DNA of 64,000 bases from a virus, in the IMG/VR virus record IMGVR_UViG_3300048834_000246, positions 1 to 64,000 of that record, one strand, 5' to 3'. Positions within the stretch are counted from its first letter, which is position 1; each line of letters begins with the position of its first letter. This document shows, piece by piece, positions 8,194 through 35,699 of this stretch. The notes beneath the pieces were generated by a model, which was given only the letters and a program-made list of their open reading frames with translations, did no database searches and was not told where the DNA came from. The translations under genes and the position numbers were made by a program.

Positions 8194-8268
8194 AGTCCTT
8201 TCGCCAAGCGGTAAGGCATCGGGTTTACATCCCGACATTCAGAGGTTCGAATCCTCTAAGGACTACCA
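8194..8268 (+). tRNA. tRNA-Val(TAC)
   Basis: The acceptor is AGTCCTT/AAGGACT with discriminator A and encoded CCA. The D arm is GCC/GGC, the anticodon arm TCGGG-TTTACAT-CCCGA and the T arm AGAGG-TTCGAAT-CCTCT. It reads GUA codons. Confidence 0.92.
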
Positions 8269-8437
8269 GCTTTCAGGGTGCTTGCACTCGCCGTAAGATA
8301 TAGGCGCTAAAACTATCTTCTGGTAAAGTTCACCAGGCTGTTCAGTCTGTACGAGACGGCAAGAGCTTACATAGCTTCGAGCCTAGATAGCTAGGCGGTA
8401 CAGAGTTCGTTAGAATTACAAACTCGAAGCTTTTCTT
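8269..8437 (+). ncRNA. Structured tRNA spacer S2
   Basis: No gene or standard tRNA is visible. Stems seen: AAGATA/TATCTT (8295-8300/8314-8319), CTGGT/ACCAG (8320-8324/8332-8336), and AGCTTCGAG/CTCGAAGCT (8373-8381/8423-8431, 9 bp perfect) enclosing CCTAG/CTAGG (8382-8386/8391-8395). The density of perfect stems suggests a folded RNA. Confidence 0.5.
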
Positions 8438-8520
8438 GGGGGTGACAGGTTTGCCTAACAGAAGGGTATAAAAACTTTGCGCTGTTAGAAACTCCGGTTC
8501 GAATCCGGACACTTCCACCA
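8438..8520 (+). tRNA. Aberrant tRNA-like element
   Basis: The acceptor GGGGGTG/CACTTCC (two G-U), discriminator A, CCA and a perfect T arm TCCGG-TTCGAAT-CCGGA are tRNA-like. The middle is not: the D arm is only AGG-TTTG-CCT, and AACAG/CTGTT encloses a 20-base loop with no U33-anticodon pattern. It may be a degenerate tRNA, a tRNA with an insertion, or a tRNA-mimic. No anticodon is assigned. Confidence 0.4.
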
Positions 8521-8573
8521 AGCTCTACAGAGACGAAATAGAGCAAAAATCTAAAAGTCTTAGGAGTAACAAC

Positions 8574-8747
8574 ATGGCTAGACGGAGAAAAGTAACACAG
8601 AAACAGACACAGGAAACTGTAGAAGAAACTGTAGAAGAAATTGTAGAAGAAACTGTAGAAGAAACTGTAGAAGAAACATCGCAGGAGCCTCTTGTAATGA
8701 CCGCGGCGGGTCTTCAACGGATGGGTGCCCAACGTAAAACAACCTAA
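8574..8747 (+). CDS. 57-residue acidic-repeat protein
   Basis: An ATG lies behind TAGGAGTAACAAC. The protein begins with a basic MARRRK segment, then five near-identical four-residue units of the type TVEE (12-bp units ACTGTAGAAGAA) and a short C-terminal tail. The repeat is a low-complexity acidic coiled-coil-like stretch whose unit number could vary by replication slippage. It is embedded in the tRNA operon. The function is unknown. Confidence 0.55.
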   Translation: MARRRKVTQKQTQETVEETVEEIVEETVEETVEETSQEPLVMTAAGLQRMGAQRKTT

Positions 8748-8764
8748 GAATTTTTTATGAAAGG

Positions 8765-8968
8765 ATGTGCGGTATAACGAACGAAGAGCGAATTGCAAAT
8801 TTAGAAACAGCGTTGTACCAAGCGCTATTTGCAATTGGGTACCTTTTAGGGTATAGTTTATCTAAGGCGGAAACCGACGAAGAAAAGCAAACACTTCAAG
8901 AACAAGTTCTCGGTCGGTTTCCCCCCGCAATGCACGATGAAATTATTGCATTGTTAGTATCGGAATAA
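8765..8968 (+). CDS. 67-residue hypothetical protein ending inside tRNA-Pro
   Basis: The ATG at 8765 directly abuts an AAAGG, so the start is uncertain. The protein is helical (NEERIANLETALYQALFAIGYLLGYSL, then an acidic helix). Its last codons and TAA (to 8968) lie within the acceptor stem of tRNA-Pro starting at 8961. It is one of three protein genes in this operon whose stop lies inside the next tRNA or tRNA-like element. The function is unknown. Confidence 0.6.
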   Translation: MCGITNEERIANLETALYQALFAIGYLLGYSLSKAETDEEKQTLQEQVLGRFPPAMHDEIIALLVSE

Positions 8969-9033
8969 GGCCGAACTGGTGAGGCGCGGCGTTTGGGACG
9001 CTGAAATAGTAGGTTCGAGTCCTGCTATTCCGA
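8961..9033 (+). tRNA. tRNA-Pro(TGG)
   Basis: The acceptor is CGGAATA/TATTCCG, D arm GCC/GGC, anticodon arm CGGCG-TTTGGGA-CGCTG and T arm GTAGG-TTCGAGT-CCTGC. It reads CCA. The first 8 bases overlap the upstream ORF. CCA is not encoded. Confidence 0.9.
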
Positions 9034-9037
9034 CCGT

Positions 9038-9125
9038 GGAAAAGTGGCAGAGCGGGTGGTTGCTTTTGTCTTGAAAACAAACGTAGATGACGAATCTACC
9101 GTGGGTTCGAATCCCACCTTTTCCT
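9038..9125 (+). tRNA. tRNA-Ser(TGA)
   Basis: A class II tRNA with acceptor GGAAAAG/CTTTTCC, anticodon arm TTTGT-CTTGAAA-ACAAA, long variable arm (GTAGAT/ATCTAC) and T arm GTGGG-TTCGAAT-CCCAC. It reads UCA. Confidence 0.93.
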
Positions 9126-9130
9126 CTTAT

Positions 9131-9204
9131 TCGGGAGTCGTCCAACGGTAAGACGAGTGACTTTGGATCATTCTATCGGGGTTCGAATCCCTGCTCCCGA
9201 TCCA
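9131..9204 (+). tRNA. tRNA-Gln(TTG)
   Basis: The acceptor is TCGGGAG/CTCCCGA followed by T and encoded CCA. The D arm is GTC/GAC and the anticodon arm AGTGA-CTTTGGA-TCATT. It reads CAA. Confidence 0.9.
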
Positions 9205-9351
9205 AGCCAAGAAAGGGTGACTCCCTTCCTACGAATGCCTAGTCAGCGACCGTAGAGTAGTGTAAAAGGCACGGGCGTTTGAACTGACCCTGAGGTAAAA
9301 AGACTACGACTTGGAAGATGCCAGACTGTAGGGTATTTAATAAGGGTCTTT
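9205..9351 (+). ncRNA. Structured tRNA spacer S4
   Basis: This is a 147-base gap with no ORF or tRNA. Complementary pairs include CCAAG/CTTGG, AAGGG/CCCTT, CTACG/CGTAG, GTCAG/CTGAC and TAGTC/GACTA. Several are mutually exclusive or pseudoknotted. It is probably part of the structured-spacer set. Confidence 0.4.
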
Positions 9352-9429
9352 ATCAGAGTAGTTTCTGTTGGTAGAAATCCTCCGCTGTTAACGGAGAGTG
9401 CGAAGGTTCGATCCCTTCCTCTGGTGCCA
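9352..9429 (+). tRNA. tRNA-Asn(GTT)
   Basis: The acceptor is ATCAGAG/CTCTGGT, discriminator G plus CCA. The D arm is TTTC/GAAA, the anticodon arm CTCCG-CTGTTAA-CGGAG and the T arm GAAGG-TTCGATC-CCTTC. It reads AAC/AAU. Confidence 0.92.
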
Positions 9430-9586
9430 TGTATAGTTTGCGTGATACCATCTATGCAGTTGCCGAGTTGCAGCGGGTAAGTAGACAACCTGCAACAGAT
9501 AGCGATATTATCACTAGGCGCTATCGGTCAGGGGTGGTCCCTGGGTCCGGACACGAGGCCGATTTGGTACAAGTGATCCGGATAAA
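9430..9586 (+). ncRNA. Structured tRNA spacer S5
   Basis: Perfect stems are GTTGCAG/CTGCAAC (9467-9473/9490-9496) and GATAGCG/CGCTATC (9498-9504/9519-9525). CAGGG/CCCTG follows, then TCCGGA motifs. No ORF or standard tRNA is seen. Confidence 0.55.
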
Positions 9587-9587
9587 A

Positions 9588-9658
9588 ATGATGATATAGT
9601 GTAATGGGAGCATAACCGTCTTTATGTCGGTAGGAGAGGTTCGAATCCTCACCATCGT
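9588..9658 (+). tRNA. tRNA-like, predicted anticodon TTA (UAA-reading or decayed)
   Basis: The acceptor ATGATGA/CCATCGT pairs at 6 of 7 positions, and GTG/CAT gives a D stem. The anticodon arm ACCGT-CTTTATG-TCGGT has 4 pairs and a T-T closing mismatch. The T arm is AGAGG-TTCGAAT-CCTCA with 4 pairs. The 7-base loop puts TTA in the anticodon, which would read UAA. The three-base variable loop and U37 are atypical. It could be a suppressor tRNA or a pseudo-tRNA. Confidence 0.4.
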
Positions 9659-9664
9659 TTTCTT

Positions 9665-9748
9665 GGGCTATTGGTGAAAGTGGCATACACGGTTGGCTTA
9701 AAACCAACTTCCTTTACGGGATTGAAGGTTCGAGTCCTTCATGGCCTA
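9665..9748 (+). tRNA. tRNA-Leu(TAA)
   Basis: A class II tRNA with acceptor GGGCTAT/ATGGCCT, anticodon arm GTTGG-CTTAAAA-CCAAC and T arm GAAGG-TTCGAGT-CCTTC. It reads UUA. Confidence 0.93.
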
Positions 9749-9763
9749 CCGAGAAAAAGCTTA

Positions 9764-9844
9764 CGGGGTATGGTGGAATAAGCAGACACGCTATCCTTAG
9801 AAGATAGTGCCTAGAGCGTACAGGTGCAAATCCTGTTACCCTGA
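9764..9844 (+). tRNA. tRNA-Leu(TAG)
   Basis: A class II tRNA with acceptor CGGGGTA/TACCCTG, anticodon arm CTATC-CTTAGAA-GATAG and T arm ACAGG-TGCAAAT-CCTGT. It reads CUA. Confidence 0.92.
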
Positions 9845-9863
9845 CTAGATTTGGAGGGATTTT

Positions 9864-10265
9864 GTGCCGTACGCAGATAGGGCTGTTCAATTAGAATATC
9901 AAAAAAAGTGGATGGAAAAACGCCGAAACGATTATTTTTTGGACAAACGATGTGCGGATTGTGGCTCAAAAGAAAATTTAGAATTAGATCATGTATATAG
10001 ACAAACTAAAATTACTCATAGAATTTGGTCATGGTCCAAACAACGACAAGAAGAAGAACTTGCAAAATGTGTTGCGCGGTGCCATACTTGTCATGTAAAA
10101 AAGACGTTGGATAAAGATTTGCCACGAGCTAAGCACGGAACACGAAGTAAATATAATGCAGGTTGCAGATGTGCTGAGTGTAGAGAAGCTCTGAGAGTAG
10201 ATGTTTCTAAATGGAGAGAACAGAAAAAGACTGAGCGAATGTGTAGCACGAATCTTGTTTCATAA
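9864..10265 (+). CDS. HNH endonuclease, free-standing in the tRNA array
   Basis: This 133-residue protein has a GTG start behind GGAGGGATTTT. The HNH core is visible: a CADCG knuckle (about 30-34), LELDHV (40-45), then KCVARCHTCHVKKT (about 73-86), giving paired CxxC zinc ligands and the H-N/H metal site. A second Cys pair (CRCAEC, about 112-117) follows. Such genes are usually homing endonucleases that spread into intergenic or tRNA-linked sites. The last codons run into a tRNA-like element at 10234-10303. It is related in layout to the HNH gene at 10853. Confidence 0.85.
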   Translation: MPYADRAVQLEYQKKWMEKRRNDYFLDKRCADCGSKENLELDHVYRQTKITHRIWSWSKQRQEEELAKCVARCHTCHVKKTLDKDLPRAKHGTRSKYNAGCRCAECREALRVDVSKWREQKKTERMCSTNLVS

Positions 10266-10303
10266 GCAAGAATTTAAGGGGGCGGCACCCTTATTCGCCA
10301 CCA
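10234..10303 (+). tRNA. tRNA-like element with CAT anticodon
   Basis: AGCGAAT/ATTCGCC pairs at 6 of 7 positions, followed by A and encoded CCA. CTTGT-TTCATAA-GCAAG is a proper anticodon arm with CAT (Met, or Ile2 if lysidinylated). The D arm is reduced to GTG-TAG-CAC. The AAGGG/CCCTT arm carries loop GGCGGCA instead of TTCRANN. It overlaps the 3' end of the HNH gene. It may be a decayed or highly unusual tRNA. Confidence 0.35.
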
Positions 10304-10395
10304 AACTAGAGGATAATCACGACCTGCTCCGAGGATGTATGCATTAAATCCTTGTGACGTACCTCTAGCGGAGACTCTGAATCTCCGGGGTCTTT
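10304..10395 (+). ncRNA. Structured tRNA spacer S6
   Basis: CTAGAGG (10306-10312) pairs with CCTCTAG (10362-10368), enclosing TCAC/GTGA and AGGAT/ATCCT. A separate CGGAGA/TCTCCG hairpin (10369-10374/10382-10387) follows. All four stems can coexist. Confidence 0.55.
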
Positions 10396-10467
10396 ATGAG
10401 TGTAGTTCAACGGAAGAACAGCGGCCTCCAAACCCGCTTGTTGAGGGTTCGAATCCTTCCACTCATG
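10396..10467 (+). tRNA. tRNA-Trp(CCA)
   Basis: The acceptor is ATGAGTG/CACTCAT, D arm GTTC/GAAC, anticodon arm GCGGC-CTCCAAA-CCCGC (one C-C mismatch) and T arm GAGGG-TTCGAAT-CCTTC. It reads UGG. Confidence 0.88.
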
Positions 10468-10568
10468 CCGAAAAGCTAAACTCTTCGGGAGGTCCGTGGT
10501 TTAGGGAAGTCAGGTCGCCCCTGATGGAAGTATGAGCCTATTGCAGCGCCTCATGCGAACGGACATTT
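10468..10568 (+). ncRNA. Structured tRNA spacer S7
   Basis: Stems are CTAAAC/GTTTAG (10476-10481/10499-10504), TCAGG/CCTGA, ATGAG/CTCAT and GTCCG/CGGAC (10492-10496/10560-10564). It shares ATTGC-N9-TGCGAACGG-N-CATTTG with spacer S8, placed directly before tRNA-Asp. Confidence 0.55.
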
Positions 10569-10642
10569 GGTTTTATAGCGCAATTGGATAGCGCCCCGGC
10601 TTGTCACGCCGGTGGGTACGGGTTCGAATCCCGTTAGAACCG
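10569..10642 (+). tRNA. tRNA-Asp(GTC)
   Basis: The acceptor is GGTTTTA/TAGAACC, D arm GCGC/GCGC, anticodon arm CCGGC-TTGTCAC-GCCGG and T arm ACGGG-TTCGAAT-CCCGT. It reads GAC/GAU. Confidence 0.93.
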
Positions 10643-10748
10643 CAGAAGACCCAACAGTGGAACCGTTGGTTGGGTGAGGAAGAGTACGTGGGGTGAGATT
10701 CCCACACCGAAAGGTGCAGATTGCTACTGGCGTGCGAACGGTTCATTT
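10643..10748 (+). ncRNA. Structured tRNA spacer S8
   Basis: Stems are ACCCAAC/GTTGGGT (10649-10655/10669-10675), GTGGG/CCCAC, ACC-GAAA-GGT (10706-10715, GAAA tetraloop) and GAACCGT/ACGGTTC (10660-10666/10738-10744). The 3' part repeats the S7 motif immediately before tRNA-Arg. Confidence 0.55.
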
Positions 10749-10821
10749 GTTCAAGTAGCTCAGCGGATAGAGTCACCGTCTTCTAAGCGGTCGGTCATAG
10801 GTTCGAATCCTATCTTGAACA
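10749..10821 (+). tRNA. tRNA-Arg(TCT)
   Basis: The acceptor is GTTCAAG/CTTGAAC with discriminator A, D arm GCTC/GAGT, anticodon arm ACCGT-CTTCTAA-GCGGT and T arm ATAGG-TTCGAAT-CCTAT. It reads AGA. Confidence 0.93.
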
Positions 10822-10852
10822 CCGTGCGGGATTAGCTAATGAAGGGAGAAAC

Positions 10853-11227
10853 GTGTACTCTAACGAACAAATGAATGAGTATATGAAAAATCGGTGGACG
10901 AAACGACGAGAAACCGCTATACTAAGTTTAGGTGGAGTATGTGTTTCTTGTGGAAGTACTGAAAATTTAGAATTTGACCATATTGATCCTAATACAAAAG
11001 AGTTTACTCTAGCGGCGGGATCAGGATTTTCCGAAGAACGATTCTCTAAAGAATTAGCTAAGTGTCAACTTCTTTGTGTATCGTGCCATAAACTAAAACA
11101 CAGGGCACCCCATGGAACGTTAGCTAGAAAACGAGATTGTAACTGTTCTTTGTGTAAAGAAGCTTGGAATACGTGGAACCGAGAATATAAACGACGTAGA
11201 CGACAAGCAAAAAATATCCCGTTGTAG
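10853..11227 (+). CDS. HNH endonuclease, second copy in the tRNA array
   Basis: This 124-residue protein has a GTG start behind GAAGGGAG. The order of motifs matches the gene at 9864: a CVSCGSTENLEFDHI core (about 30-44), KCQLLCVSCHKLKH (about 70-83) and a terminal CNCSLC pair. Sequence identity is moderate, so the two are diverged paralogues or separate arrivals. The stop codon lies inside tRNA-Lys (11218-11290). It is probably a homing endonuclease. Confidence 0.85.
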   Translation: MYSNEQMNEYMKNRWTKRRETAILSLGGVCVSCGSTENLEFDHIDPNTKEFTLAAGSGFSEERFSKELAKCQLLCVSCHKLKHRAPHGTLARKRDCNCSLCKEAWNTWNREYKRRRRQAKNIPL

Positions 11228-11290
11228 TAGAGTGGCCGCTACACTAGACTTTTAATCTTTGAGACAGAGGTTCGAATCCTCTCAGCGGGA
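11218..11290 (+). tRNA. tRNA-Lys(TTT)
   Basis: The acceptor is CCCGTTG/CAGCGGG with discriminator A, D arm GTAG/CTAC, loop CTTTTAA and T arm AGAGG-TTCGAAT-CCTCT. The anticodon stem CTAGA/TCTTT has only three pairs. It overlaps the last three codons of the HNH gene. It reads AAA. Confidence 0.82.
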
Positions 11291-11301
11291 CTAAATAACT
11301 T

Positions 11302-11375
11302 GGGGAAATCGCCTAACGGAATGGCACCTTCTTTGCAAGAAGGAATAATTGTGGATTCGAATTCCACTTTCTCCA
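11302..11375 (+). tRNA. tRNA-Ala(TGC)
   Basis: The acceptor is GGGGAAA/TTTCTCC, D arm GCC/GGC, anticodon arm CCTTC-TTTGCAA-GAAGG and T arm GTGGA-TTCGAAT-TCCAC. It reads GCA. Confidence 0.9.
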
Positions 11376-11516
11376 CCGGGCGCAACCTGCCGAAAGTGGT
11401 TGGCTTAGGGTAGTTGGCTGCAATTACCTACGCTCTATATCATAACGAGGCGTCAAATTACCCACGCCTACCGGGATTCCGGGCATATAGAGGGGGAATA
11501 GATACAAGGAGAGATT
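11376..11516 (+). ncRNA. Structured tRNA spacer S9 (three-way junction)
   Basis: GTAGTTG-GCTG-CAATTAC (11410-11427) forms one hairpin. CTCTATAT (11433-11440) pairs with ATATAGAG (11485-11492), closing a junction that holds AGGCGT/ACGCCT (11448-11453/11464-11469) and CCGG-GATT-CCGG (11471-11482). All stems are perfect and mutually compatible. Confidence 0.65.
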
Positions 11517-11762
11517 GTGCAACCTGAACCTACCATAACAATTGTTAGTGGAAGTGATTGGACTCAGTTATATGTTAATGATGACTGTGTTGAAGAAAAT
11601 CATAGCATTAGTTTAACTCACGGTTTAGATGCGTTGGATATTCCCTACCAAACTATTTCTGTCGATGACGATAGTGTTATGGAAGAAATTTCCGGGTATA
11701 ATTATTCTCTTCGTAAAGTAAAAGATATTATTGAAAACTCAGGACAACTACCGTTGTTCTAA
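11517..11762 (+). CDS. 81-residue hypothetical protein
   Basis: A GTG start lies behind AAGGAGAG. The protein is acidic, with alternating strand and helix patterns (TITIVSGSDWTQLYVN, then a DIPYQTISVDDDSV region and a terminal helix). No known motif is recognised. It lies between the spacer S9 structure and tRNA-His, ending six bases before that tRNA, so it is cotranscribed with the tRNAs. Confidence 0.6.
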   Translation: MQPEPTITIVSGSDWTQLYVNDDCVEENHSISLTHGLDALDIPYQTISVDDDSVMEEISGYNYSLRKVKDIIENSGQLPLF

Positions 11763-11767
11763 AATAT

Positions 11768-11840
11768 GGTGTTCATGGCCGAGCGGATTAGGCACACGTC
11801 TGTGGAACGTGGTAGGTGGGTTCAATTCCCACTGAGTACC
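11768..11840 (+). tRNA. tRNA-His(GTG)
   Basis: The acceptor is GTGTTCA/TGAGTAC with the diagnostic extra G-1 opposite C73. The D arm is GCC/GGC, the anticodon arm CACGT-CTGTGGA-ACGTG and the T arm GTGGG-TTCAATT-CCCAC. It reads CAC/CAU. Confidence 0.93.
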
Positions 11841-11855
11841 CCCAAAAGTATCTAT

Positions 11856-11927
11856 GTCCGTATGGTGAAAAGCATATCACCAATGTCTTCGAAACATTAG
11901 TTGTGGGTTGGATTCCTACTACGGACA
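11856..11927 (+). tRNA. tRNA-Arg(TCG)
   Basis: The acceptor is GTCCGTA/TACGGAC, D arm GTGA/TCAC, anticodon arm AATGT-CTTCGAA-ACATT and T arm GTGGG-TTGGATT-CCTAC (loop slightly unusual). It reads CGA, a codon used often in these genes. Confidence 0.9.
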
Positions 11928-11932
11928 CTAAT

Positions 11933-12007
11933 GCGCTAGTCGTATAACGGCTATTACCGCAGTTTTCCAAACTGCCGATCAGAGTTCGATTCTCTGCTGG
12001 CGCTCCA
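11933..12007 (+). tRNA. tRNA-Gly(TCC)
   Basis: The acceptor is GCGCTAG/CTGGCGC followed by T and encoded CCA. The D arm is GTA/TAC, the anticodon arm GCAGT-TTTCCAA-ACTGC and the T arm CAGAG-TTCGATT-CTCTG. It reads GGA. Confidence 0.92.
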
Positions 12008-12008
12008 C

Positions 12009-12086
12009 GCATCCTTAGCTCAGACTGGTCAGAGCGGCTATCTTGTAAATAGCGGGTCAAGTGTTCGAATCACTTAGGATGCTCCA
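12009..12086 (+). tRNA. tRNA-Thr(TGT)
   Basis: The acceptor is GCATCCT/AGGATGC followed by T and encoded CCA. The D arm is GCTC/GAGC, the anticodon arm GCTAT-CTTGTAA-ATAGC and the T arm AAGTG-TTCGAAT-CACTT. It reads ACA. It is the last tRNA of the operon. Confidence 0.93.
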
Positions 12087-12089
12087 ATA

Positions 12090-12120
12090 AAAAAAGAAGC
12101 CCTCGGGCTTCTTTTTTTTA
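12090..12120. terminator. Bidirectional terminator between tRNA operon and HNH gene
   Basis: GAAGCCC (12096-12102), TC loop, GGGCTTC (12105-12111) with T8 on the right and A-run on the left. It ends the rightward tRNA operon and can also end the leftward transcripts from 16621. Confidence 0.9.
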
Positions 12121-12122: not shown

Positions 12123-12569
12123 TTAAAGAATGATAAGAAGGAAAACTCCTCCCACAAACCACAGCCATAAATTTCTCGGTTTTTCTTGTGCTTGCATTGT
12201 TGATGTGTACACCTCCCCTCGACGTTTAGCTTTAACTCGTCGTTGGTTGTTGTGATTGTATTTCGGCTTACGGCTGTTGCGTGACATTCGCTCACGACGG
12301 TAATTTGCGATCTTAGCACGCCGGGTACGACCGGAAATAATTCTATTGCTCTTAGCCATATTACACGATCTACATGCTGTCGCTAAGTTTCGAGGATGGT
12401 CAGAGCCACCCTTAGACCTGGGATGAATATGGTCTAATTGAAGATACATAGTTGAGTCACAGTAAACACAACGAAAATCGTCTCGCTCATAAATGGCGAG
12501 ACGATCTTCACGACTGATCCAACCTGTGCGGCCACCACGATGCTTACTACGATGCTTCCTTAAAATCAT
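12123..12569 (-). CDS. HNH endonuclease with C-terminal membrane segment
   Basis: This is a 148-residue protein. Residues about 34-75 form an HNH nuclease of the McrA/phage type: CVYCDS, LQLDHIHPRSKGGSDHPRNL, ACRSCNMAK. A basic stretch (about 80-118) follows. The last about 14 residues (LWLWFVGGVFLLIIL) are hydrophobic, which is odd for a nuclease and may be a membrane tail or chance. AAGGATTTCTT precedes the ATG. It is the last gene of the leftward block. It is a homing or packaging-linked nuclease, role uncertain. Confidence 0.85.
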   Translation of the reverse strand: MILRKHRSKHRGGRTGWISREDRLAIYERDDFRCVYCDSTMYLQLDHIHPRSKGGSDHPRNLATACRSCNMAKSNRIISGRTRRAKIANYRRERMSRNSRKPKYNHNNQRRVKAKRRGEVYTSTMQAQEKPRNLWLWFVGGVFLLIIL

Positions 12570-12581
12570 AAGAAATCCTTA

Positions 12582-13142
12582 CTATCTAGTTAAGGAATTA
12601 ATCGTGTCAAATCCAACCAGAATTTCTTGGTTTGAACGATTGTCCAACGGAAAAATTACGTCTGGTTTAATATTATCAATCTCTGTTTCCGACGCGTGCT
12701 TCTTAAACTCAGTAATATTCGATTCAAATGTTCGTTCAATTTTTACGATAATAAATCCTCGTTTTCGGAGAAAATCGGCTTCATTGGGAAACCGACAATC
12801 ATCAATCACGAATTGAACACCTGGGTTTTGTTGCATCTTCTCGTCTAGACGGAGAAGCCAGAAATCTTCCACCCCCATATATTTACGCCAGAAGTCTGTC
12901 CCATACCATTGAAGAAACGGACGAAAAACTTCATTTTTATGTTTCTCAATTGTTCCCCTGGAAATGGCGGGGAGTGTGAGGTTAAGATCATTTCCCTTAG
13001 TCCTAACAGCATAACTGAGCAATTCAACCACATCGTCTTTTACGGCGTCCGCGAAGGACAATCGTTTGTAATTACGGTAACTAACGAGTAGTTCTGCGGT
13101 CGTTGTTTTTCCGACTCCCATTGGTCCAATAATAGCGATGTT
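12582..13142 (-). CDS. Deoxynucleoside monophosphate kinase
   Basis: This P-loop kinase of the T4 gp1-like dNMP kinase family phosphorylates dNMPs to dNDPs. The Walker A motif GPMGVGKTT lies right at the N-terminus. Later landmarks are LQWYGTDFWRK (near residue 78-88), the DDCRFPNEAD segment and a C-terminal D-N-R-S region. I prefer the TTG at 13142 (protein begins NIAIIGPMG), eight bases behind AAAGGTGG. A GTG at 13157 abuts that site and is less likely. It works with ThyX and RNR in dNTP supply. Confidence 0.8.
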   Translation of the reverse strand, partial: NIAIIGPMGVGKTTTAELLVSYRNYKRLSFADAVKDDVVELLSYAVRTKGNDLNLTLPAISRGTIEKHKNEVFRPFLQWYGTDFWRKYMGVEDFWLLRLDEKMQQNPGVQFVIDDCRFPNEADFLRKRGFIIVKIERTFESNITEFKKHASETEIDNIKPDVIFPLDNRSNQEILVGFDTINSLTR

Positions 13143-13226
13143 CAACGCGTCTTCCACCTTTCGTATGTGTGATAAATATGAAGAATAAGTTTATGAAAAA
13201 AATATTTTGAACGCCAACCAATAGGA

Positions 13227-13688
13227 TTAAAAATTCCCACGTCTTGATCCTTCCCATACTCGATACATATACGCTAATGTTGGTAGTTCTTTAGAAGATA
13301 CGGCTTGAAGAAGTTGCTCAGTGTTGTCCAGACGCCCTACAAAAGGCATATTCTCAAAGAGTTGTTCTTGTGGTCCGATGACAATACAGCCTTTCTTTAG
13401 CGTGTACGCTCGTCCAAACTCCCAAAATTTCCCCCCTCCAACATGATAACGAGGATCATTGCTCGTAAACATAATAAACAAATCGCAATTCGCTACGTCT
13501 TTTGAATCACGTACTGCGTCGGCTTGCTTGACCTCAAATGTTCGTGTACTTTCTCGGTCATGTGGCCCGTCTGGATCGTCTAACCAGGAACTAACAGAAA
13601 TAAGGGTAGGATCATACGAAATTACTTTGTCTCGAATACCTCTAATTTCGTTTTTTCTATACCATGAACCGGCAAAATAGATTTTCAC
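13227..13688 (-). CDS. Nucleoside 2-deoxyribosyltransferase-like protein
   Basis: This is a 153-residue protein. MKIYFAGSWYRKNEIR at the N-terminus, DLFIMFTSNDPRYHVGGGKFWEFGRAYTLKKGCIVIGP in the middle (shown here only as a region, residues about 69-106) and a C-terminal helix match the deoxyribosyltransferase/DUF4406-like fold. The G-G-x-x-x-E pattern supplies the catalytic Glu. Such enzymes exchange or hydrolyse bases on deoxynucleosides. A GTG start lies behind GGAGACAAC. In phages this gene often sits with nucleotide kinases, as here. Confidence 0.75.
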   Translation of the reverse strand: MKIYFAGSWYRKNEIRGIRDKVISYDPTLISVSSWLDDPDGPHDRESTRTFEVKQADAVRDSKDVANCDLFIMFTSNDPRYHVGGGKFWEFGRAYTLKKGCIVIGPQEQLFENMPFVGRLDNTEQLLQAVSSKELPTLAYMYRVWEGSRRGNF

Positions 13689-13882
13689 TAAAAGTTGTCT
13701 CCTTCTTCATTCTCTTCCAAAATCTCTGCTAAAGTATCGCGTACTTCCTCTACTCTGTCAATAGTCTCTATAGATACCCTACTATTCCTATCGAAATCTT
13801 TTAAAACATCACAGAGACAAGCATGTGTAATAAGCAGAAATTCCATATCTATGTTTTTTCTAAAAACGTTATACCGCCTCAT
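13688..13882 (-). CDS. 64-residue hypothetical protein
   Basis: A small protein with a hydrophobic-to-charged helical pattern and an acidic C-terminus (EEVRDTLAEILEENEEGDNF). Its stop touches the start of the deoxyribosyltransferase gene and its start overlaps the end of the next upstream gene, so it is part of the same polycistron. The function is unknown. Confidence 0.6.
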   Translation of the reverse strand: MRRYNVFRKNIDMEFLLITHACLCDVLKDFDRNSRVSIETIDRVEEVRDTLAEILEENEEGDNF

Positions 13883-14129
13883 GGTCTAGCTCCTTATCTT
13901 TTGCCTTCTTTGTACGAGACATATCTTTATGGTCATTTAATACGAGAGAATAATTAGGTTCAATTGACGGCCCTAGATGTTCATCAAAATAGCGAAGAAC
14001 ATCATCGGATGTGAAGGTTACAAGGACATACCTGGGTGGAGCGCCTTGATAGGCAACATGTTCCAACCAGTCGTCCGGTAACGACCGTAAGAACGGATAG
14101 AACTGTGCGGAACGATACCTGTGTGTCAT
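13869..14129 (-). CDS. 86-residue hypothetical protein
   Basis: A mixed alpha/beta small protein with an aromatic N-terminal half and a Lys-rich tail (SRTKKAKDKELDHE). It shares one base with the start of the primase-helicase gene stop region and overlaps the downstream gene by 14 bases, showing translational coupling. The function is unknown. Confidence 0.6.
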   Translation of the reverse strand: MTHRYRSAQFYPFLRSLPDDWLEHVAYQGAPPRYVLVTFTSDDVLRYFDEHLGPSIEPNYSLVLNDHKDMSRTKKAKDKELDHEAV

Positions 14130-16621
14130 TATTCACCTCGCTCTAAGGAATCAGGATTTAACATCGTAAAGCTGTACAAATTTGTGGGATTTCCTTGCCT
14201 CATTTCAATCTTCACAATGGATTCTACATCTTTTGCAAGTTCACGAAGCTGCTGTGCAAGCGCTCTCGCGTTCGAAACTTGATTCTCATATTCTCGTTCA
14301 GAACCGACCGCCTTAGCGGTATTCTTTAGTTCTGCATGGAGTCGAGACGCCGAAATCCAAGAACTGTTGTTTGGGTAAAAAACACTTCCATCCTCCGGCT
14401 TTGTTCCCTTTCGCCGCACCCACAAATCAATCATATTCCACAGCGTAGACGAATCTCTCGCAGTCTGTTTTTGATTGCTTTCAAGTGTTGAGAGAAGGTC
14501 AAGCTCCGGCAAGTCTACTGCTTTAGACGCCGCTAACATAAAGTCAGCATACGCGGCCATACGCAGATTATGGGTTCCAGGCTTCCATGTTTTTAACACA
14601 TTGACAATTTTATTGAGGTCGATAAGAAGTTCACCCCAAAGCTCGTTTCGGTTGTCTCGAATTGCATCAAGAAGAACCGTAGGGCTGATCTTTTCGTCCC
14701 GGCGATCTACGTACAGCACCACGATGCGCGTAGACACATCTGACCGGGTGAACCAGTGGTTCCGTGTGGTCATTCCGAGGTGACACTTCACCTTAAAGGA
14801 AACGTGTTCGTTGGTTGTGTACAGCTTCCGTCGGGTGAACTGAATCCCTGTAGCGACCTCACAGAGCGCGTCTTCAAGCCACTTGTTCGGGGTATCCACA
14901 TTATCAAGGAACACATGGTGTGCGTTCGATACGGCGGTTTCAAAGGTACTTCGGTCGGTAGGGATAGACGATACTGTTGTTTCCGGACCCGTTAGAAGCT
15001 CGCCTACTGCCTGTAGTGCGAGAGATTTACCGGAATCGGTTGGTCCCGCAATAATCAGGTGAGGCTGTGCATCCATGTATTCCGAGAAGAACAGGGAATA
15101 TACCCATAGACGGAATAAGGCTTCGGCCTGATCCCGAGTGTGCCGTCCTAGCTGTGTGTCGTAATTAGGAAGCCCGAAGATTGCTTTTTGAAGCGTGGTG
15201 TTTCGCCGCTTTCTTGGTGGTTCTGCGACAAAAGGTGTCATGTTTACGGTATCTCGAAAGAGAATACCGTCCGTTCCGTTTTGCACCGTGTCGATTGCAT
15301 CACCACCGTCTAGGCGGTAAACCATACCTTCTCCGTTATAAATATAGAGAAGGTGGTTCTCTTTACTCCAATAGTAAGATGTTTTTGGAACAACCGGAAT
15401 TCCTCGATCCTGAACAAACGCGGTGAGCGTTTCATTAATCGCTTTAAATTCAGCTTCTCCATCAACAACCCAATAACGAATATTGAGCAGCGTTTTCCAA
15501 CGCTGATTTGTGGCATTCATTGGAATGATATGATAGCCGTCATAATACAGAGCTTCGTGGCGTTCGGTATCCCAATACAAACATCCTGTATCATTCAAGT
15601 CTTTCATAATATGTTCACTAATTGACCGGCGTTTTTCAGTTGCCGGTGTGTTTGATTGTGCCCGAATCTGCTTTAGAACCGAAAGCACAGGTGTCTCAGA
15701 CGGAGTGTTTGAAATCCTAAATCCACGGTAAATATCCTTCCACAAATCTTCATCGCTGTTGTAACGCCACTCTTGATGAAATTTGTCGTTTGCTGAGTTG
15801 TACACCAGGGAGAAGCATTCTTCCTGTGTCATTCCTAAATGATAGCAAAGAGAGTAGATTCGCCAAAGAGCCGCTGATCTGTCCGGTCGAGGTCGGTCAA
15901 GAAGATCGGTAAGTTCCGTAGAGAAACTATACGACGCTTCAAGCTCTTCCCTTGACGGAAGATCGTCAATATGAGGCGTTTCGGGAATTTTCCCCGTATC
16001 GAACAACATTTCCGGGGCAGCTTCCAAATTATCAAAATCTGGAAGCGTGTAGACGTTTTGGCTGTTGTACTCAATAACGGAAATGTTATGTGGGGTTTGA
16101 CGTTTATGTGACGTAGACCCTGGAAGACGAAGCCACTTCGAAAGCGCCCATCCCCCTTTATCTTCTTTTAGTTTGTGTCCATAAGCAAGGCGGTAGTTGA
16201 TGCGCTCAACATCCTTCGCTGCATATGGGCGGTCAAGAAGCCAGTATAGGTGATAACGCCCCGGAGACGTATTAACAATAATGGACGGTTCCGGCTTGAA
16301 TGTCTTCGGAGGAATATCCGAGTCATCAAGCTCTACCCAAGCTACATCAAGGAGTTCAACGCTATCGTCTTTCCCCACATCCTTCCCCCGACGTGTGAAG
16401 CCGTGCGGGGTAAAATACACATCCTTTCCAACTGTGTTAATACCAAGCCCGGAAATGCCGGATTCGGACAGAGAATGAATATTAGAACGACCCAACCAGT
16501 GAATCGTTCCGGGGAAAGTTTGTGTTGAATCAACGATTGCAAAACGGATAAGGTCATTACGTCGAGGATCATTAACACCGTTCATCGGGAACAGTGTTTG
16601 TAGAAACTCTGTTGTTTGCAT
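14129..16621 (-). CDS. Replicative primase-helicase (RepB-type primase, D5/VirE-like ATPase)
   Basis: This is an 830-residue replication protein. Residues about 60-190 resemble a RepB/AEP-like primase (VELDDSD, IIVNTSPGRYHLYWLLDRP, WLRLPGSTSHK), where the D-x-D-type acids and the S-G-R-H motif give the catalytic centre. Residues about 500-660 are a hexameric SF3/VirE-like ATPase: Walker A GPTDSGKS, Walker B HHVFLDNVD and a sensor MTTRNHWF. The C-terminus may bind DNA. It should prime and unwind DNA at the phage origin. It is the first gene from the leftward promoter at 16687-16715. Confidence 0.8.
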   Translation of the reverse strand: MQTTEFLQTLFPMNGVNDPRRNDLIRFAIVDSTQTFPGTIHWLGRSNIHSLSESGISGLGINTVGKDVYFTPHGFTRRGKDVGKDDSVELLDVAWVELDDSDIPPKTFKPEPSIIVNTSPGRYHLYWLLDRPYAAKDVERINYRLAYGHKLKEDKGGWALSKWLRLPGSTSHKRQTPHNISVIEYNSQNVYTLPDFDNLEAAPEMLFDTGKIPETPHIDDLPSREELEASYSFSTELTDLLDRPRPDRSAALWRIYSLCYHLGMTQEECFSLVYNSANDKFHQEWRYNSDEDLWKDIYRGFRISNTPSETPVLSVLKQIRAQSNTPATEKRRSISEHIMKDLNDTGCLYWDTERHEALYYDGYHIIPMNATNQRWKTLLNIRYWVVDGEAEFKAINETLTAFVQDRGIPVVPKTSYYWSKENHLLYIYNGEGMVYRLDGGDAIDTVQNGTDGILFRDTVNMTPFVAEPPRKRRNTTLQKAIFGLPNYDTQLGRHTRDQAEALFRLWVYSLFFSEYMDAQPHLIIAGPTDSGKSLALQAVGELLTGPETTVSSIPTDRSTFETAVSNAHHVFLDNVDTPNKWLEDALCEVATGIQFTRRKLYTTNEHVSFKVKCHLGMTTRNHWFTRSDVSTRIVVLYVDRRDEKISPTVLLDAIRDNRNELWGELLIDLNKIVNVLKTWKPGTHNLRMAAYADFMLAASKAVDLPELDLLSTLESNQKQTARDSSTLWNMIDLWVRRKGTKPEDGSVFYPNNSSWISASRLHAELKNTAKAVGSEREYENQVSNARALAQQLRELAKDVESIVKIEMRQGNPTNLYSFTMLNPDSLERGE

Positions 16622-16662: not shown

Positions 16663-16691
16663 TTGACGACGAAAATAATGTATGTTATTAT
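16663..16691 (+). promoter_or_regulatory. Rightward packaging/head promoter
   Basis: TTGACG (16663-16668), 17 bp, TATTAT (16686-16691). It drives the block starting at 16790. Its -10 box is the same DNA as the -10 of the leftward promoter. Confidence 0.75.
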
Positions 16692-16715
16692 ATATCAAGT
16701 AGAAAATAATGTCAT
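16687..16715 (-). promoter_or_regulatory. Leftward replication promoter
   Basis: On the minus strand, ATGACA (16715-16710), 17 bp, TATAAT (16692-16687). It drives the primase-helicase block. A direct repeat GAAAATAATGT lies at 16671-16681 and 16702-16712, 31 bp apart, one copy in each promoter. Confidence 0.75.
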
Positions 16716-16789
16716 AGAACAACTCCCCTCTATCTTCTAAGTGTATTAGTTCTATTCTAACCAACAAACCTCGTTAGGTCAAGGATTAC

Positions 16790-17338
16790 ATGGATACGCG
16801 TATCGCTCATTATACCCGAAAAGCTCCGTCCTTTGACGAAGTTAAGGTCGAACAATTTCTCACATTCGTAGCTTTGGGTTACTCGTTTTTGGAATCGTGC
16901 GAACGGGCTGACCTTAGCAAAGATACGGTTCGCACTTGGATCAACAAAGGGGGAAACCCCAGAGGTCGTTCTAAACGAGCGTGTGCGTCTCACGTCCACG
17001 TAGAACCCTATTATACGTTTGTTCAACGCTATTTGGAAGCAAAAGACAAGGGACTTCGTAGAAACCCTCCTGGGGCACCTCATGGGCGGCGACCAAAAGA
17101 GATTACCGACGAACAAAAAACGCTTCTGCTTAACGCTATTCGTGAAGGCTGGTCGTATCAAGCAGCGTGTACAAAAGCCGGTGTTTCCCTCTCCACCTTC
17201 GTTTCTTATTTACGTTTAGGTGGCTATCCCCGTAAAATCTCTCCGTACAGAACAATCCACGAAGATCATGTACAAGAACCCTACAAGTCGTTTGTAAAAG
17301 ATATTATACAAGCAGAGGACGAATACTTTGTCTCGTAA
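16790..17338 (+). CDS. HTH protein with two related DNA-binding repeats
   Basis: This is a 182-residue protein. Two similar units occur: residues about 18-62 (GYSFLESCERADLSKDTVRTWINKGG) and about 104-150 (GWSYQAACTKAGVSLSTFVSYLRLGG), each a helix-turn-helix followed by a basic linker and a PYxxFVxxxxxAE segment. The next gene has one such unit, so the set looks like small-terminase-type DNA binders produced by duplication. AAGGATTAC precedes the ATG. It probably recognises packaging-site DNA or controls the late block; this is inferred. Confidence 0.65.
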   Translation: MDTRIAHYTRKAPSFDEVKVEQFLTFVALGYSFLESCERADLSKDTVRTWINKGGNPRGRSKRACASHVHVEPYYTFVQRYLEAKDKGLRRNPPGAPHGRRPKEITDEQKTLLLNAIREGWSYQAACTKAGVSLSTFVSYLRLGGYPRKISPYRTIHEDHVQEPYKSFVKDIIQAEDEYFVS

Positions 17339-17858
17339 AAAAACATTCGACCCGGATAAGGTAATTGAAGATGTAGAACGGACAAGCCCTCTTGCAAAAC
17401 GAATGGCGTTAGTTAAAGAAGTCCATCCTGAACGCTCACCTGTTTCTGGAACGTTGTTTGGTATTAGCGCGGAGCAACGAGTATTACTGTGCGATGCGCT
17501 ACGGGCGGGTAACTTTAGAAAAACGGCTTGTAATCTTGCGGGAGTAAGTTATACAACATTTAATTCGTGGATGAAGCGTGGTGGTGATGGAGACGACGGT
17601 GAATTAGAAGAGTATGATGAACCGTATAAATCCTTTGTGTTAGACGTGCGTGTAGCCGAAGCGGAGGGGGAAAGTCATCTTCTTTCAATTATCTCTGGTG
17701 CGGCGTTGACCGATTGGAAAGCCGCAAGTTGGATTCTAAATAAGCGTAATAAAGAACACTGGTCGGATACCGACAAAACCTCCATCCAGGTAGGAACAAC
17801 CGGAGGCGTTTCTATTATTCTCCCGAGCAATGGCCGGGAACTTGAAAAGGGCAAGTAA
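17328..17858 (+). CDS. Small terminase subunit (TerS)
   Basis: This is a 176-residue protein with a TTG start overlapping the upstream gene by 11 bases. It has a helix-turn-helix (residues about 62-88, GNFRKTACNLAGVSYTTFNSWMKRGG) followed by a helical AEAEGESHLLSIISGAALTDWKAASWILNKRNKEHW segment (region about 110-144), which is typical of phage terminase small subunits (the DWKAAxWxLxRR pattern). It should bind the packaging site and load TerL. The position two genes before terL supports this. Confidence 0.8.
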   Translation: MSRKKTFDPDKVIEDVERTSPLAKRMALVKEVHPERSPVSGTLFGISAEQRVLLCDALRAGNFRKTACNLAGVSYTTFNSWMKRGGDGDDGELEEYDEPYKSFVLDVRVAEAEGESHLLSIISGAALTDWKAASWILNKRNKEHWSDTDKTSIQVGTTGGVSIILPSNGRELEKGK

Positions 17859-18100: not shown

Positions 18101-18426
18101 TGATGCCGACAATTATTGAAGATGAAGTTTTGTATTTTGTCGAAGAATCGTGTGTTTTTACGACAAATGAAATCGAGCATGAATCGTTTACACGTCCGTA
18201 TCCGGTAGGTTCCTATGAAGAACCTATCGCTACGTTTGAACTTGTCGATAGAGCGGGAACCGTCATTGACACAACAACAGGAACCAGGGTTACGGGAACA
18301 AATATGTTTGAAGCAACATTAACCCTTCCAAATGTGAAAGGTCAATATTCGTGGAGAGCAGAGGTAACAACGGATTCCTTCACCTACCGGCAACGAGAAA
18401 AGATTTATGTCTACCCCTTCGAATAA
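18100..18426 (+). CDS. Small beta-sandwich protein before terL
   Basis: This is a 108-residue protein whose ATG overlaps the upstream stop. Strand-rich pattern: IATFELVDRAGTVID, MFEATLTLPNVKGQYSWRAEVTT, KIYVYPFE. It resembles the virion-associated protein at 7783 and looks immunoglobulin-like. Its end overlaps the terL start by 20 bases. The role is unknown; it is possibly a virion or head-tail component. Confidence 0.55.
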   Translation: MMPTIIEDEVLYFVEESCVFTTNEIEHESFTRPYPVGSYEEPIATFELVDRAGTVIDTTTGTRVTGTNMFEATLTLPNVKGQYSWRAEVTTDSFTYRQREKIYVYPFE

Positions 18427-19828
18427 AGAAGTTCCTTCAATCAGCCCCCAACCAGGGCCGCAAACAGACTTTCTTACGACGGAAGCCGATATTGCTATTT
18501 ATGGTGGTGCGGCTGGTGGTGGGAAGACGTGGGCGATTCTCGCAGAACCGCTACGACACTATGATAACCCAAATTTTTCCGGGGTTATTTTTCGTAGAAC
18601 GTATCCGATGATTGAAAGCGAAGGCGGGTTATGGTCTGAAAGCCATAAAGTGTATCCGGTCGTTCATGGAAAATCCAGGCAACGAGACTTGAAATGGATT
18701 TTTCCGTCCGGTATGAGTATTCGTTTTGCGCACATGCAGCATGAAGACGATAAACACAATTGGCAAGGCGCTCAGATTCCGTTTATTGGTTTTGATGAGT
18801 TAACCCACTTTTCAGAAGAACAGTTCTTTTATCTTATGTCACGTAACCGTTCTGTATCAGCGGGTATTAAAGGGTACATTCGAGGGACGTGCAACCCCGA
18901 CGCACTGTCCTGGGTGAAGAAATTCCTTGCCCCGTGGGTAGACCGCTTCTCTCCGATCAAGGCAGAGAGTGGGGAAATTCTTTACATGGTTCGTGATGGT
19001 GGAACCGTAAAGTGGTATCGGTCGAAAGACGAAGCGATCACCGATCCCGCAAACTCCCACCTTATGAATATGGGCGTTCCCCCGGAAGCGCTTATTAAAT
19101 CCGTTACGTTTATTAAGTCTACGATTCACGATAATAAAATTCTTATTCGAGAACAGCCTGAGTATCTTGGTAGCCTTATGGCCCTTCCAAAAGTGGAACG
19201 GATGCGGTTACTTGATGGGGATTGGGATGTTCTACCAGAAGCCGGAAAGATTTTTGATCGAAACTGGTTTGAAGTTGTTAAAGAAATTCCGGCAGGAAAC
19301 GATAAAAATAAAGCCTACGATGTTCGTTTTTGGGACTTCGCGGCAACAGAGAAGGCGCTTAAAGGAAACGACCCCGACTGGACCGTGGCAACTCGAATGC
19401 GGAAGTTTAACGGAGAATATTTTGTTGTAGACGTGCAGCGGTTCCAAGTTGGCCCAGGCGAAATTGAAAAACTCATTCAAGTCATTGCATCACAAGACGG
19501 TCGAGACGTTCCGATTCGTTGGGAAATTGAAGGCGCGTCGTCTGGAAAAATGGTTTCAAACAGACTTACGCAACTTCTCGCAGGATACGATGCGAGAGGA
19601 ATTAGACCACAAGGCGATAAAGTAAAACGAGCGATGCCCCTTTCGGCTCAATCGGAAGCCGGAAACGTCAAACTTAAACAGGACACATGGAATGAGTATT
19701 GGCTTACCGAGCTACATCACTTTCCCGACGCGGCACACGACGACTGTGTAGACAGTGCTTCCGGGGCGTTCAACTTTATTTCCAGGTTTGGATTTGAAGT
19801 GACCTCCGGCGACGATCTTTGGAGTTAA
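18407..19828 (+). CDS. terL: Terminase large subunit (TerL)
   Basis: This is a 473-residue packaging motor. Walker A GAAGGGKT (residues 34-41) and Walker B PFIGFDE (125-131) form the ATPase. GTCNP (160-164) is the usual post-Walker motif. The nuclease half starts with VRFWDFAATEK (306-316), giving the first catalytic Asp, and ends with AAHDDCVDS near residue 448, giving the last acidic ligands. It acts at the procapsid portal, cutting concatemers and pumping DNA. Length and motif order are normal. The start ATG overlaps the preceding gene. Confidence 0.95.
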   Translation: MSTPSNKEVPSISPQPGPQTDFLTTEADIAIYGGAAGGGKTWAILAEPLRHYDNPNFSGVIFRRTYPMIESEGGLWSESHKVYPVVHGKSRQRDLKWIFPSGMSIRFAHMQHEDDKHNWQGAQIPFIGFDELTHFSEEQFFYLMSRNRSVSAGIKGYIRGTCNPDALSWVKKFLAPWVDRFSPIKAESGEILYMVRDGGTVKWYRSKDEAITDPANSHLMNMGVPPEALIKSVTFIKSTIHDNKILIREQPEYLGSLMALPKVERMRLLDGDWDVLPEAGKIFDRNWFEVVKEIPAGNDKNKAYDVRFWDFAATEKALKGNDPDWTVATRMRKFNGEYFVVDVQRFQVGPGEIEKLIQVIASQDGRDVPIRWEIEGASSGKMVSNRLTQLLAGYDARGIRPQGDKVKRAMPLSAQSEAGNVKLKQDTWNEYWLTELHHFPDAAHDDCVDSASGAFNFISRFGFEVTSGDDLWS

Positions 19829-19831: not shown

Positions 19832-21277
19832 ATGGCAGATTATAAACCTCTTGTACACAGTTCGTTAGGGTTCGGTCTTCCGCAGTCAACAGCGGTAGGA
19901 GCCGGAAACCCTCGGATGATGGAAAAAATGGCTATCGCTCGGCAGTCTTACATGGGAGACTTCAAACCGTCCTTAAAGACAAGGGTTGGCGGTCCTGACG
20001 ATAATGTAATGATTAATAAGTGTAAAACCGTGGTAGACAAGTCAGTAAGTTACTTGTTTGGTAAGCATGTTACATTTGTTACTGATAAAGAAGCAACCCG
20101 GTCGCCGCATGAAAAGATTCTTGATGCGATTTGGGCGCGGAATAATCAGGGGGCAACGCTTCAAAAGATTGGTACGAACGGAGCTATCTACGGACAGGCG
20201 TTTGTAAAACTTCATATCGAAGCGGACTCTATTCGTATTATGGTTCTCGACCCCACAACGGTAACGGTTTTTACATCCCACTATGACTACACAGAAGTAA
20301 ACGAATATGTCATTCAGTGGACCGTAACAACGGATGTGTACTCCCAGGCATATCGCCACTATCGACAACGAATTACACGCATCCCTTCGATGATGTGGAC
20401 TGACGAAGTAGGAGAAGTTCAGGAAACCCCGCAAAAGTGGATCGTTGAAGATTCGTTTGCGGATTCGATGGGGCATGGTCAACCTATTAAGGGAGACTGG
20501 ACTGCGACTCAAACAGAGATTTGGGACTTTTCGTTCCCACCAATTCTAGAAGTTCAAAATTTGCCAACTCCGAATGAGTATTGGGGGTTGTCTGATATTG
20601 AACCGGACGTCATTCACCTGAACGAAACACTTAACCGTGTGTCGTCTAACACGAATAAGATTATTCGAAATCATGCCCACCCGAAGACAATTGTGTGGGG
20701 TTTGACAGATGAACAAGCAAAACGAGTCACCGTTGATTCTGACTCAATGCTCTTTATTCCGGGAAGTAAAGAAGACGTTGATCTAAAGAACCTGGAAATG
20801 AACTCTGACCTTGCTAGTTCTTTGAACTATTTCAAGTCCATTAACGAAGCGTTTTATGAAGTATCACGGACTCCTGAAATCGCATCTGGTAAAGCTCAGG
20901 AAGTTTCCTACCTCTCGGCTATGGCGATGCAAATTCTCTATGGTCCTATGATTGAAAAAACAAACTCCAAGCAAATGACATATGGACCGTTTCTTTCTGA
21001 GCTAAACCGACGCATCCTTATTATTATGGGCGTGCAAACTCCCGACCCTGTTGAAGTTATTTGGCCTGTGACTTTCCCGAGAGACGCACAAACCGAAGTA
21101 ATGACCGGGATGAACAAACTGCAAGTTGGGTTCTCTTCTGACACGGTTATCTCGGAACTCGGCGGAAACCCTGATTACGAACGTGAACGACGAAAAGACG
21201 ATCCCGGAACATTGCCAAGTCAACCGGCAGAAGCGACACAAGAAGCGCGAACCCCGGAGATTGGAAAAACTAACTAA
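19832..21277 (+). CDS. Portal protein
   Basis: This is a 481-residue protein of the SPP1 gp6-like portal type. It sits right after terL and before the scaffold and capsid. The N-terminal half has a KCKTVVDKSVSYLFGKHV segment and an AIYGQAFVKLHIE segment. The C-terminal half contains the long-helix/crown region (LNETLNRVSSNTNKIIRNHAHPK) and a VEVIWP segment, ending in a Pro/Glu-rich tail. The dodecameric ring is the DNA channel and the docking site for TerL and connector proteins. Its stop overlaps the next gene's ATG. Confidence 0.9.
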   Translation: MADYKPLVHSSLGFGLPQSTAVGAGNPRMMEKMAIARQSYMGDFKPSLKTRVGGPDDNVMINKCKTVVDKSVSYLFGKHVTFVTDKEATRSPHEKILDAIWARNNQGATLQKIGTNGAIYGQAFVKLHIEADSIRIMVLDPTTVTVFTSHYDYTEVNEYVIQWTVTTDVYSQAYRHYRQRITRIPSMMWTDEVGEVQETPQKWIVEDSFADSMGHGQPIKGDWTATQTEIWDFSFPPILEVQNLPTPNEYWGLSDIEPDVIHLNETLNRVSSNTNKIIRNHAHPKTIVWGLTDEQAKRVTVDSDSMLFIPGSKEDVDLKNLEMNSDLASSLNYFKSINEAFYEVSRTPEIASGKAQEVSYLSAMAMQILYGPMIEKTNSKQMTYGPFLSELNRRILIIMGVQTPDPVEVIWPVTFPRDAQTEVMTGMNKLQVGFSSDTVISELGGNPDYERERRKDDPGTLPSQPAEATQEARTPEIGKTN

Positions 21278-21543: not shown

Positions 21544-21572
21544 TTGACAGTGAACTTTTAGCATGTTATAAT
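21544..21572 (+). promoter_or_regulatory. Capsid-block promoter
   Basis: TTGACA (21544-21549), exactly 17 bp, TATAAT (21567-21572): a perfect consensus sigma-70-type promoter. It should give strong expression of scaffold and major capsid genes. Confidence 0.9.
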
Positions 21573-35034: not shown

Positions 35035-35035
35035 T

Positions 35036-35638: not shown

Positions 35639-35648
35639 GAGTTGCTAT

Positions 35649-35675
35649 TTTTAGTAAAGTGTGTTAGACTATAAT
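35649..35675 (+). promoter_or_regulatory. Possible promoter of the lysis block
   Basis: TATAAT (35670-35675) is a perfect -10, but the -35 is weak (TTTAGT at 15 bp or TTGCTA at 22 bp). It is located 25 bases before the gene at 35700, so an activator may be required. Confidence 0.45.
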
Positions 35676-35699
35676 CTATAATTAGGATTATGGGGGTAT

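Follow-up and report, generated by a model that had tools for sequence, protein, structure and literature searches.

Can two opposed promoters that overlap at one -10 box act as a switch between the early and late genes of a phage? The question is raised by a junction in the stretch of DNA analysed here (hereafter the window: the first 64,000 bases of a virus record 67,968 bases long), whose terminase, portal, head and tail genes mark it as that of a tailed phage. A preliminary description of this DNA had placed two such promoters between leftward replication genes and rightward packaging and structural genes, and proposed that they form a compact either/or switch.

Results

Two opposed promoters predicted at one symmetric -10 box

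The junction separates a leftward unit of five genes (about 4.5 kb) from a rightward series that runs in the order terS-like gene, terminase small subunit, two small ORFs, TerL, portal, scaffold, major head and tail. This context is as had been claimed, with a primase-like gene leading leftward and the terS-like, terS, terL and portal genes leading rightward. The features are as follows (R is the rightward promoter, L1 and L2 the two leftward ones; G001 is a contig of a related phage described below).

12089-12118, no strand: terminator-like hairpin, separating the leftward unit from a rightward tRNA array
12123-14129, minus strand: rest of the leftward unit (unknown ORF, deoxyribosyltransferase-like, dNMP kinase and HNH endonuclease genes)
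13733-13761, minus strand: internal leftward promoter candidate, TTGACA-N17-GATACT, matched at G001 65743-65715
14129-16621, minus strand: primase-like replication protein, first gene leftward
16663-16691, plus strand: R, sigma70-type promoter TTGACG-N17-TATTAT (-35 at 16663-16668, -10 at 16686-16691)
16671-16681, plus strand: direct repeat copy 1, GAAAATAATGT, inside the R spacer
16687-16715, minus strand: L1, promoter ATGACA-N17-TATAAT (-35 at 16715-16710, -10 at 16692-16687, common to R)
16702-16712, plus strand: direct repeat copy 2, GAAAATAATGT, covering part of the L1 spacer and three bases of the L1 -35
16754-16782, minus strand: L2, second leftward promoter candidate TTGACC-N17-TAGAAT (10/12), adjoining the terS-like start
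16790-17338, plus strand: terS-like protein with two tandem helix-turn-helix (HTH) modules, first gene rightward
17328-17858, plus strand: terminase small subunit, partial paralogue of the terS-like protein
18407-19828, plus strand: terminase large subunit (TerL)
19832-21277, plus strand: portal protein
21544-21572, plus strand: 12/12 consensus promoter TTGACA-N17-TATAAT, preceding the scaffold and major head genes, matched at G001 7522-7550

The sequence check bore out both R and L1 at these positions, each with a 17-bp spacer, and their -10 boxes indeed fall within the same seven bases (16686-16692), where they overlap by five bases and are symmetric (TATTATA/TATAATA). By consensus scoring, R matches at 10/12 positions and carries an extended TG ahead of its -10, while L1 matches at 11/12, exceeding the scores of both R and L2. 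With starts placed seven bases beyond each -10, R is predicted to start on the A at 16698 (92 nt upstream of the terS-like ATG) and L1 at about 16680 (59 nt upstream of the primase-like ATG), on a C that has an A on both sides and is not an ideal +1. The predicted starts lie 18 bp apart and the two boxes are reciprocal: base pair 16687 provides the -11A of R and the -7T of L1, and base pair 16691 the -7T of R and the -11A of L1. Such an overlap supports the further claim that polymerase would be unable to occupy R and L1 together.

A shared -10 pair scoring at least 21/24 with an offset of at most 1 base never appeared when the junction was dinucleotide-shuffled 4000 times, a pair offset by up to 3 bases appeared once in 60 Markov-simulated 64-kb sequences, and an exact 11-base direct repeat appeared in 39 of the 4000 shuffles, all of these being post hoc figures from tests picked once the site was known. 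By these counts, the pair is unusual and the repeat mildly unusual. Taken singly, a rightward site of at least 10/12 arose in 279/4000 junction shuffles and a leftward one in 303/4000 (25/4000 at 11 or more); between 10 and 26 kb, single promoter-like sites were not in excess (25 vs 23.9 ± 5.4 in shuffles).

The two copies of GAAAATAATGT are 31 bp, or about three helical turns, apart, and no further exact copy occurs elsewhere in the record. They had been described as lying once in each spacer at this distance, which holds for the first copy and for the distance; the second is not wholly contained in the L1 spacer (16693-16709).

A related phage has counterparts of R and L2

A related phage is present on three IMG/VR contigs, with TerL 75% and the primase-like protein 73% identical to those of the window; the contigs count as one lineage, because the fetched junction stretches are identical. 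The ends of one of them, G001 (67,645 bases), overlap by 127 bases, and its gene order is largely similar to that of the window. R has a counterpart there at the same relative position (TTGACA-N18-TGnTATGTT, G001 1113-1142), the distance from its -35 to the primase-like start being 42 bp in the window and 39 bp in the relative, with an extended -10 in both. On this -10, the best opposing site combines TACCAT with a -35 of 3/6 and is far weaker than L1. GAAAATAATGT was not found in the relative's junction, and its nearest copy with one mismatch sits elsewhere in that genome.

The sole leftward site of at least 10/12 at the relative's junction is TTGACC-N17-TATCAT (G001 1249-1221), which, like L2, adjoins the terS-like start. 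Between the two -10 boxes the first two and last two bases are kept and the middle two changed. A leftward site of at least 10/12 in this zone arose in 80/4000 shuffles for the window and 18/4000 for the relative; conservation of the L2 region may instead be due to the neighbouring terS-like start. L2 had been missing from the preliminary list of promoters and is the most useful addition to it. Its predicted start, at about 16747, would yield an RNA that overlaps the R transcript by about 50 nt. From sequence comparison, the elements matched in both phages would be R and L2, which face each other, with L1 as a third, lineage-specific element.

At the relative's junction, an imperfect inverted repeat of 17 nt (82% complementarity) also spans the start predicted for the rightward promoter (L002 2808-2846), and the window has no inverted repeat at the corresponding position. 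Scans and alignments with the primase-like, portal and terS-like proteins for more relatives of the junction gave the same phage or nothing. TerL searches yielded many loci; in the part of them searched, outside the relative, no match was found to the primase-like (best E 4.4, P0001) or the terS-like protein (best E 0.12, P0002), and DNA searches of the phage collection returned no match. The window and its relative indicate that one divergent junction can be furnished with promoters with or without a common -10, and the shared box alone is therefore no evidence for a switch.

The replication and structural arms have promoters of their own

A separate leftward arm (39.8-62.7 kb) encodes DNA polymerase A, a helicase, a Sak4-like annealing protein, an exonuclease and ribonucleotide reductase. 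Because most replication genes sit in this arm, the leftward unit at the junction holds a minor share of them. Promoter-like sites were collected at 10/12 or better in the two genomes, coding regions included, which gave 41 sites (25 + 16), and five junction sites were set aside. Among the other 36, the -10 was TATAAT in 5, all within the structural arm, and TATACT in 15, all outside it, the remaining 16 having a different -10 (2 inside the structural arm, 14 outside). The association of TATAAT and TATACT with the arms was significant in each genome (Fisher p 0.008 and 0.02) and in the pooled set (p 6e-5), a pooled value that is overstated because the two genomes are related.

50592-62259, minus strand, window: TATACT-class promoters
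8088, plus strand, window: TATACT-class promoter
31546-48122, 57571 and 60971, G001: TATACT-class promoters

This TTGACA-N17-TATACT class, mostly with a G ahead of the -10, occurs in non-structural arms only (7 and 8 sites), and some of its spacers are alike, for instance TTGACACTTGACTGATTGTCG and TTGACACTTGACTGACAGTCG. With TATTAT/TATAAT as the shared -10, L1 is unlike the promoters of the replication arm; promoters resembling TTGACA/TATAAT are present elsewhere in both phages.

Altogether, these results leave the proposed early/late either-or switch unsupported. The only relative found has no site as strong as L1 in its place, and the junction does not set the replication genes against the structural ones: the arm at 39.8-62.7 kb has its TATACT promoters, as the structural arm has others, including the 12/12 promoter at 21544 for the head genes, and the leftward unit amounts to only five genes in about 4.5 kb. 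The overlap of the two -10 boxes implies momentary mutual exclusion, from which an early/late switch does not follow. No regulator and no conserved operator was found for the shared promoter.

Several other features of the genome were recorded. An integrase-like gene (54861-55790, minus strand) and a repressor-like HTH gene (53523-53993, minus strand) suggest a temperate or formerly temperate phage. DNA polymerase A (44867-47479, minus strand) has an N-terminal domain of the uracil-DNA glycosylase superfamily (Pfam match at residues 44-191). The stretch 63390-63740 is rich in short ATTGGT/ACCAAT repeats that run in either direction, and is possibly an origin or a regulator-binding array. ARAGORN found 17 tRNA genes (8194-12086), two of them (9588-9659 and 11218-11291) with anticodon TTA, which would read the stop codon TAA; Rfam matches in the window were tRNAs only.

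The adjacent paralogues at 16790-17858 differ in that the first apparently lacks the C-terminal part of the second. By its place, the first, terS-like protein would be the natural candidate for a regulator of the junction, but its best sequence matches are small terminases. Its structural model, built from two sequences, is of moderate confidence (pLDDT 70.9, pTM 0.44) and had no match in the PDB at E<=0.001; the small terminase of Sf6 ranked second among its structural matches, at an E value (1.5) that makes it suggestive only.

Shared -10 pairs occur at other viral junctions

IMG/VR was scanned with the pattern TTGAC-N18-TATWATA-N17-TGTCA and with a swapped-flank control. The two-sided pattern was found in at least 119 stretches and the control in 7; dropping identical cores (38 of the 119 listed matches and 1 of the 7 controls) left at least 81 against 6. 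Among the 81 listed cores, mechanical ORF calls placed 38 in intergenic regions, 35 in ORFs and 8 at edges, and the intergenic ones listed were divergent in 15 cases, tandem in 22 and convergent in 1. All six controls fell in ORFs. This contrast is confounded, since the control drops both promoters while one-sided promoters are common.

A better-controlled test took the fetched loci (1.88 Mb), with the selecting hits masked and duplicate loci left out, and used the 392 strong promoters there. Opposing -35 elements showed no enrichment at a spacing of 16-18 bp relative to other distances, whether at all of these promoters or at the 80 among them with a symmetric -10. With its control confounded and this test negative, we rejected the screen as a sign of selection for two-sidedness.

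The largest cluster of downstream genes among the 81 listed cores was one small-terminase family with 8 members, which are related to each other and so are not independent cases; the name of the family rests on L153, L154 and L162, out of 20 proteins searched that represented 12 of the 15 divergent loci. Three metagenomic contigs have a strong shared pair next to a terS of this Pelagibacter type.

L154 4443-4494: shared -10 pair adjoining Pelagibacter-type terS
L187 25-76: shared -10 pair adjoining Pelagibacter-type terS
L153 909-960: shared -10 pair adjoining Pelagibacter-type terS

Of 19 named phage records with a homologue, 10 were fetched, and in none of these (0/10) did the two sides of a shared -10 pair both reach 10/12. 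Three of the 10 are Pelagibacter phages (HTVC115P, HTVC103P and HTVC033P) with strong divergent promoters before terS, one toward it and one the opposite way, which are separate and unshared, whereas their metagenomic relatives L154 and L187 have one common -10, as in the window. The isolates with separate promoters show that the shared form is not fixed among Pelagibacter-type junctions. BLAST detected no similarity between the Pelagibacter-type small-terminase family and the small terminase of the window. In both phage groups, the shared -10 is one of several arrangements and not a fixed device.

Discussion

The question of this junction is best answered, with confidence that stops just short of even, by a sigma70-type bidirectional promoter between the primase-led leftward unit and the terS-led packaging and structural unit, whose two starts would compete and whose output would be a ratio. 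Sigma70 use is read from the consensus. A host-type RNA polymerase would recognise the symmetric -10 (TATTATA/TATAATA) facing either way, and a near-consensus -35 on each side would guide it, so that two starts compete for one site; the presence of both near-consensus -35s makes such competition plausible. What the site sets would then be the proportion of leftward to rightward starts, and not a bistable state. The rightward direction would be the conserved function, whereas the shared leftward promoter would be either a gain or a form that the relative has lost. Should L1 be active, two leftward starts would serve the primase operon, that of L1 competing with R for one site and that of L2 sending polymerases through this same site.

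Bidirectional promoters in bacteria were reportedly introduced in a founding 2021 paper by Warman, Grainger and colleagues. In later papers, starts 18 bp apart with reciprocal pairing of -7T and -11A are their commonest configuration (PMC10268837; PMC12825309), and they are the source of 19% of the RNAs detected in E. coli (PMC12825309, citing the 2021 paper). That a polymerase bound in one direction covers the other is the standard steric argument (PMC12825309; PMC6593788). In E. coli, according to PMC12825309, competition counts only when transcription is high enough, and five bidirectional promoters showed little basal competition, which appeared once a -35 was improved. The window's pair resembles these promoters in its sequence geometry (symmetric shared -10, starts 18 bp apart, reciprocal -7T and -11A) and in its divergent genes. 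It differs in that both its -35s are near consensus, whereas the five E. coli cases tested had low basal activity, and in that it lies in a phage; the available text of PMC12825309 contains neither the word phage nor virus, and that of PMC10268837 does not contain phage. Among the titles and abstract openings searched, none dealt with a shared -10 at the early/late junction of a phage, which is not proof of absence.

Competition between promoters does not by itself make a switch: in pLS20, according to PMC4207663, overlapping promoters can switch if their basal strengths are unequal and a regulator affects each of them differently. Its Pc and Pr, like the promoters of the window, overlap divergently and admit one polymerase at a time, and they are part of a genetic switch. 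In the reading favoured there, however, the -10 of one is the -35 of the other, while in the window the -10 boxes coincide. The pLS20 promoters are of very different strengths, with looping and a regulator gene alongside; those of the window look similar in strength by sequence, and are flanked by a primase-like gene and the terS-like gene (two HTH modules, small-terminase matches). Against the operators of pLS20, the window offers one direct repeat, not found at the relative's junction.

L1 might instead be a by-product of the symmetry of the -10, with the opposing -35 a matter of luck, R real, and the leftward genes driven by L2 and the promoter at 13733. We consider this possible, though unlikely. 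The relative argues for it, since L1 is not kept there and L2 and the 13733 promoter have counterparts. So does the survey of strong viral promoters, in which neither the full 392 nor the symmetric subset of 80 was enriched for an opposing -35. Yet L1, at 11/12 with a 17-bp spacer, outscores R and L2 and is expected to fire, and leftward sites this good were rare in the junction shuffles (25/4000). If R and L2 are the regulatory pair, their overlap of about 50 nt could act face to face, through collision, blocking or pairing of 5' leaders. Their similar placement in both phages fits such control, and convergent interference is documented in phages (PMC6593788), but L2 reaches just 10/12, the overlap is short and the starts are predicted ones, which makes this reading rather unlikely.

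It is improbable that a phage or host protein bound to the two copies of GAAAATAATGT shifts polymerase from the leftward to the rightward direction as infection proceeds. One exact copy per promoter, the spacing of about three helical turns and the restriction of the repeat to the junction within the record would suit such a regulated switch, as would the HTH regulator gene at 53523-53993 and the tandem-HTH protein encoded directly downstream; against this, the repeat is missing at the relative's junction, an 11-mer repeat turned up in 39/4000 shuffles, and both gene sets have other promoters. In some phages the small terminase binds close to the gene that encodes it, and GAAAATAATGT lies upstream of terS-like genes, so that the repeats could be a pac/cos site, recognised by the small terminase for packaging, instead of a transcription element. 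This is scarcely credible, given that the repeat was not found in the relative's junction and that the stretch is accounted for as promoter.

The bidirectional promoter that we favour is of an already known bacterial kind, and the window's pair, as its predicted elements are arranged, joins this kind by its standard reciprocal geometry. A link to packaging can also be imagined, in which the terS-derived tandem-HTH protein binds both copies of GAAAATAATGT and diverts polymerase from the primase operon, coupling the onset of packaging to the shut-off of these replication genes, although we hold this to be highly improbable. If active, the shared promoter would be a two-way promoter of a phage with strong elements on both sides, and would thus lie in the regime where competition between polymerases should show.
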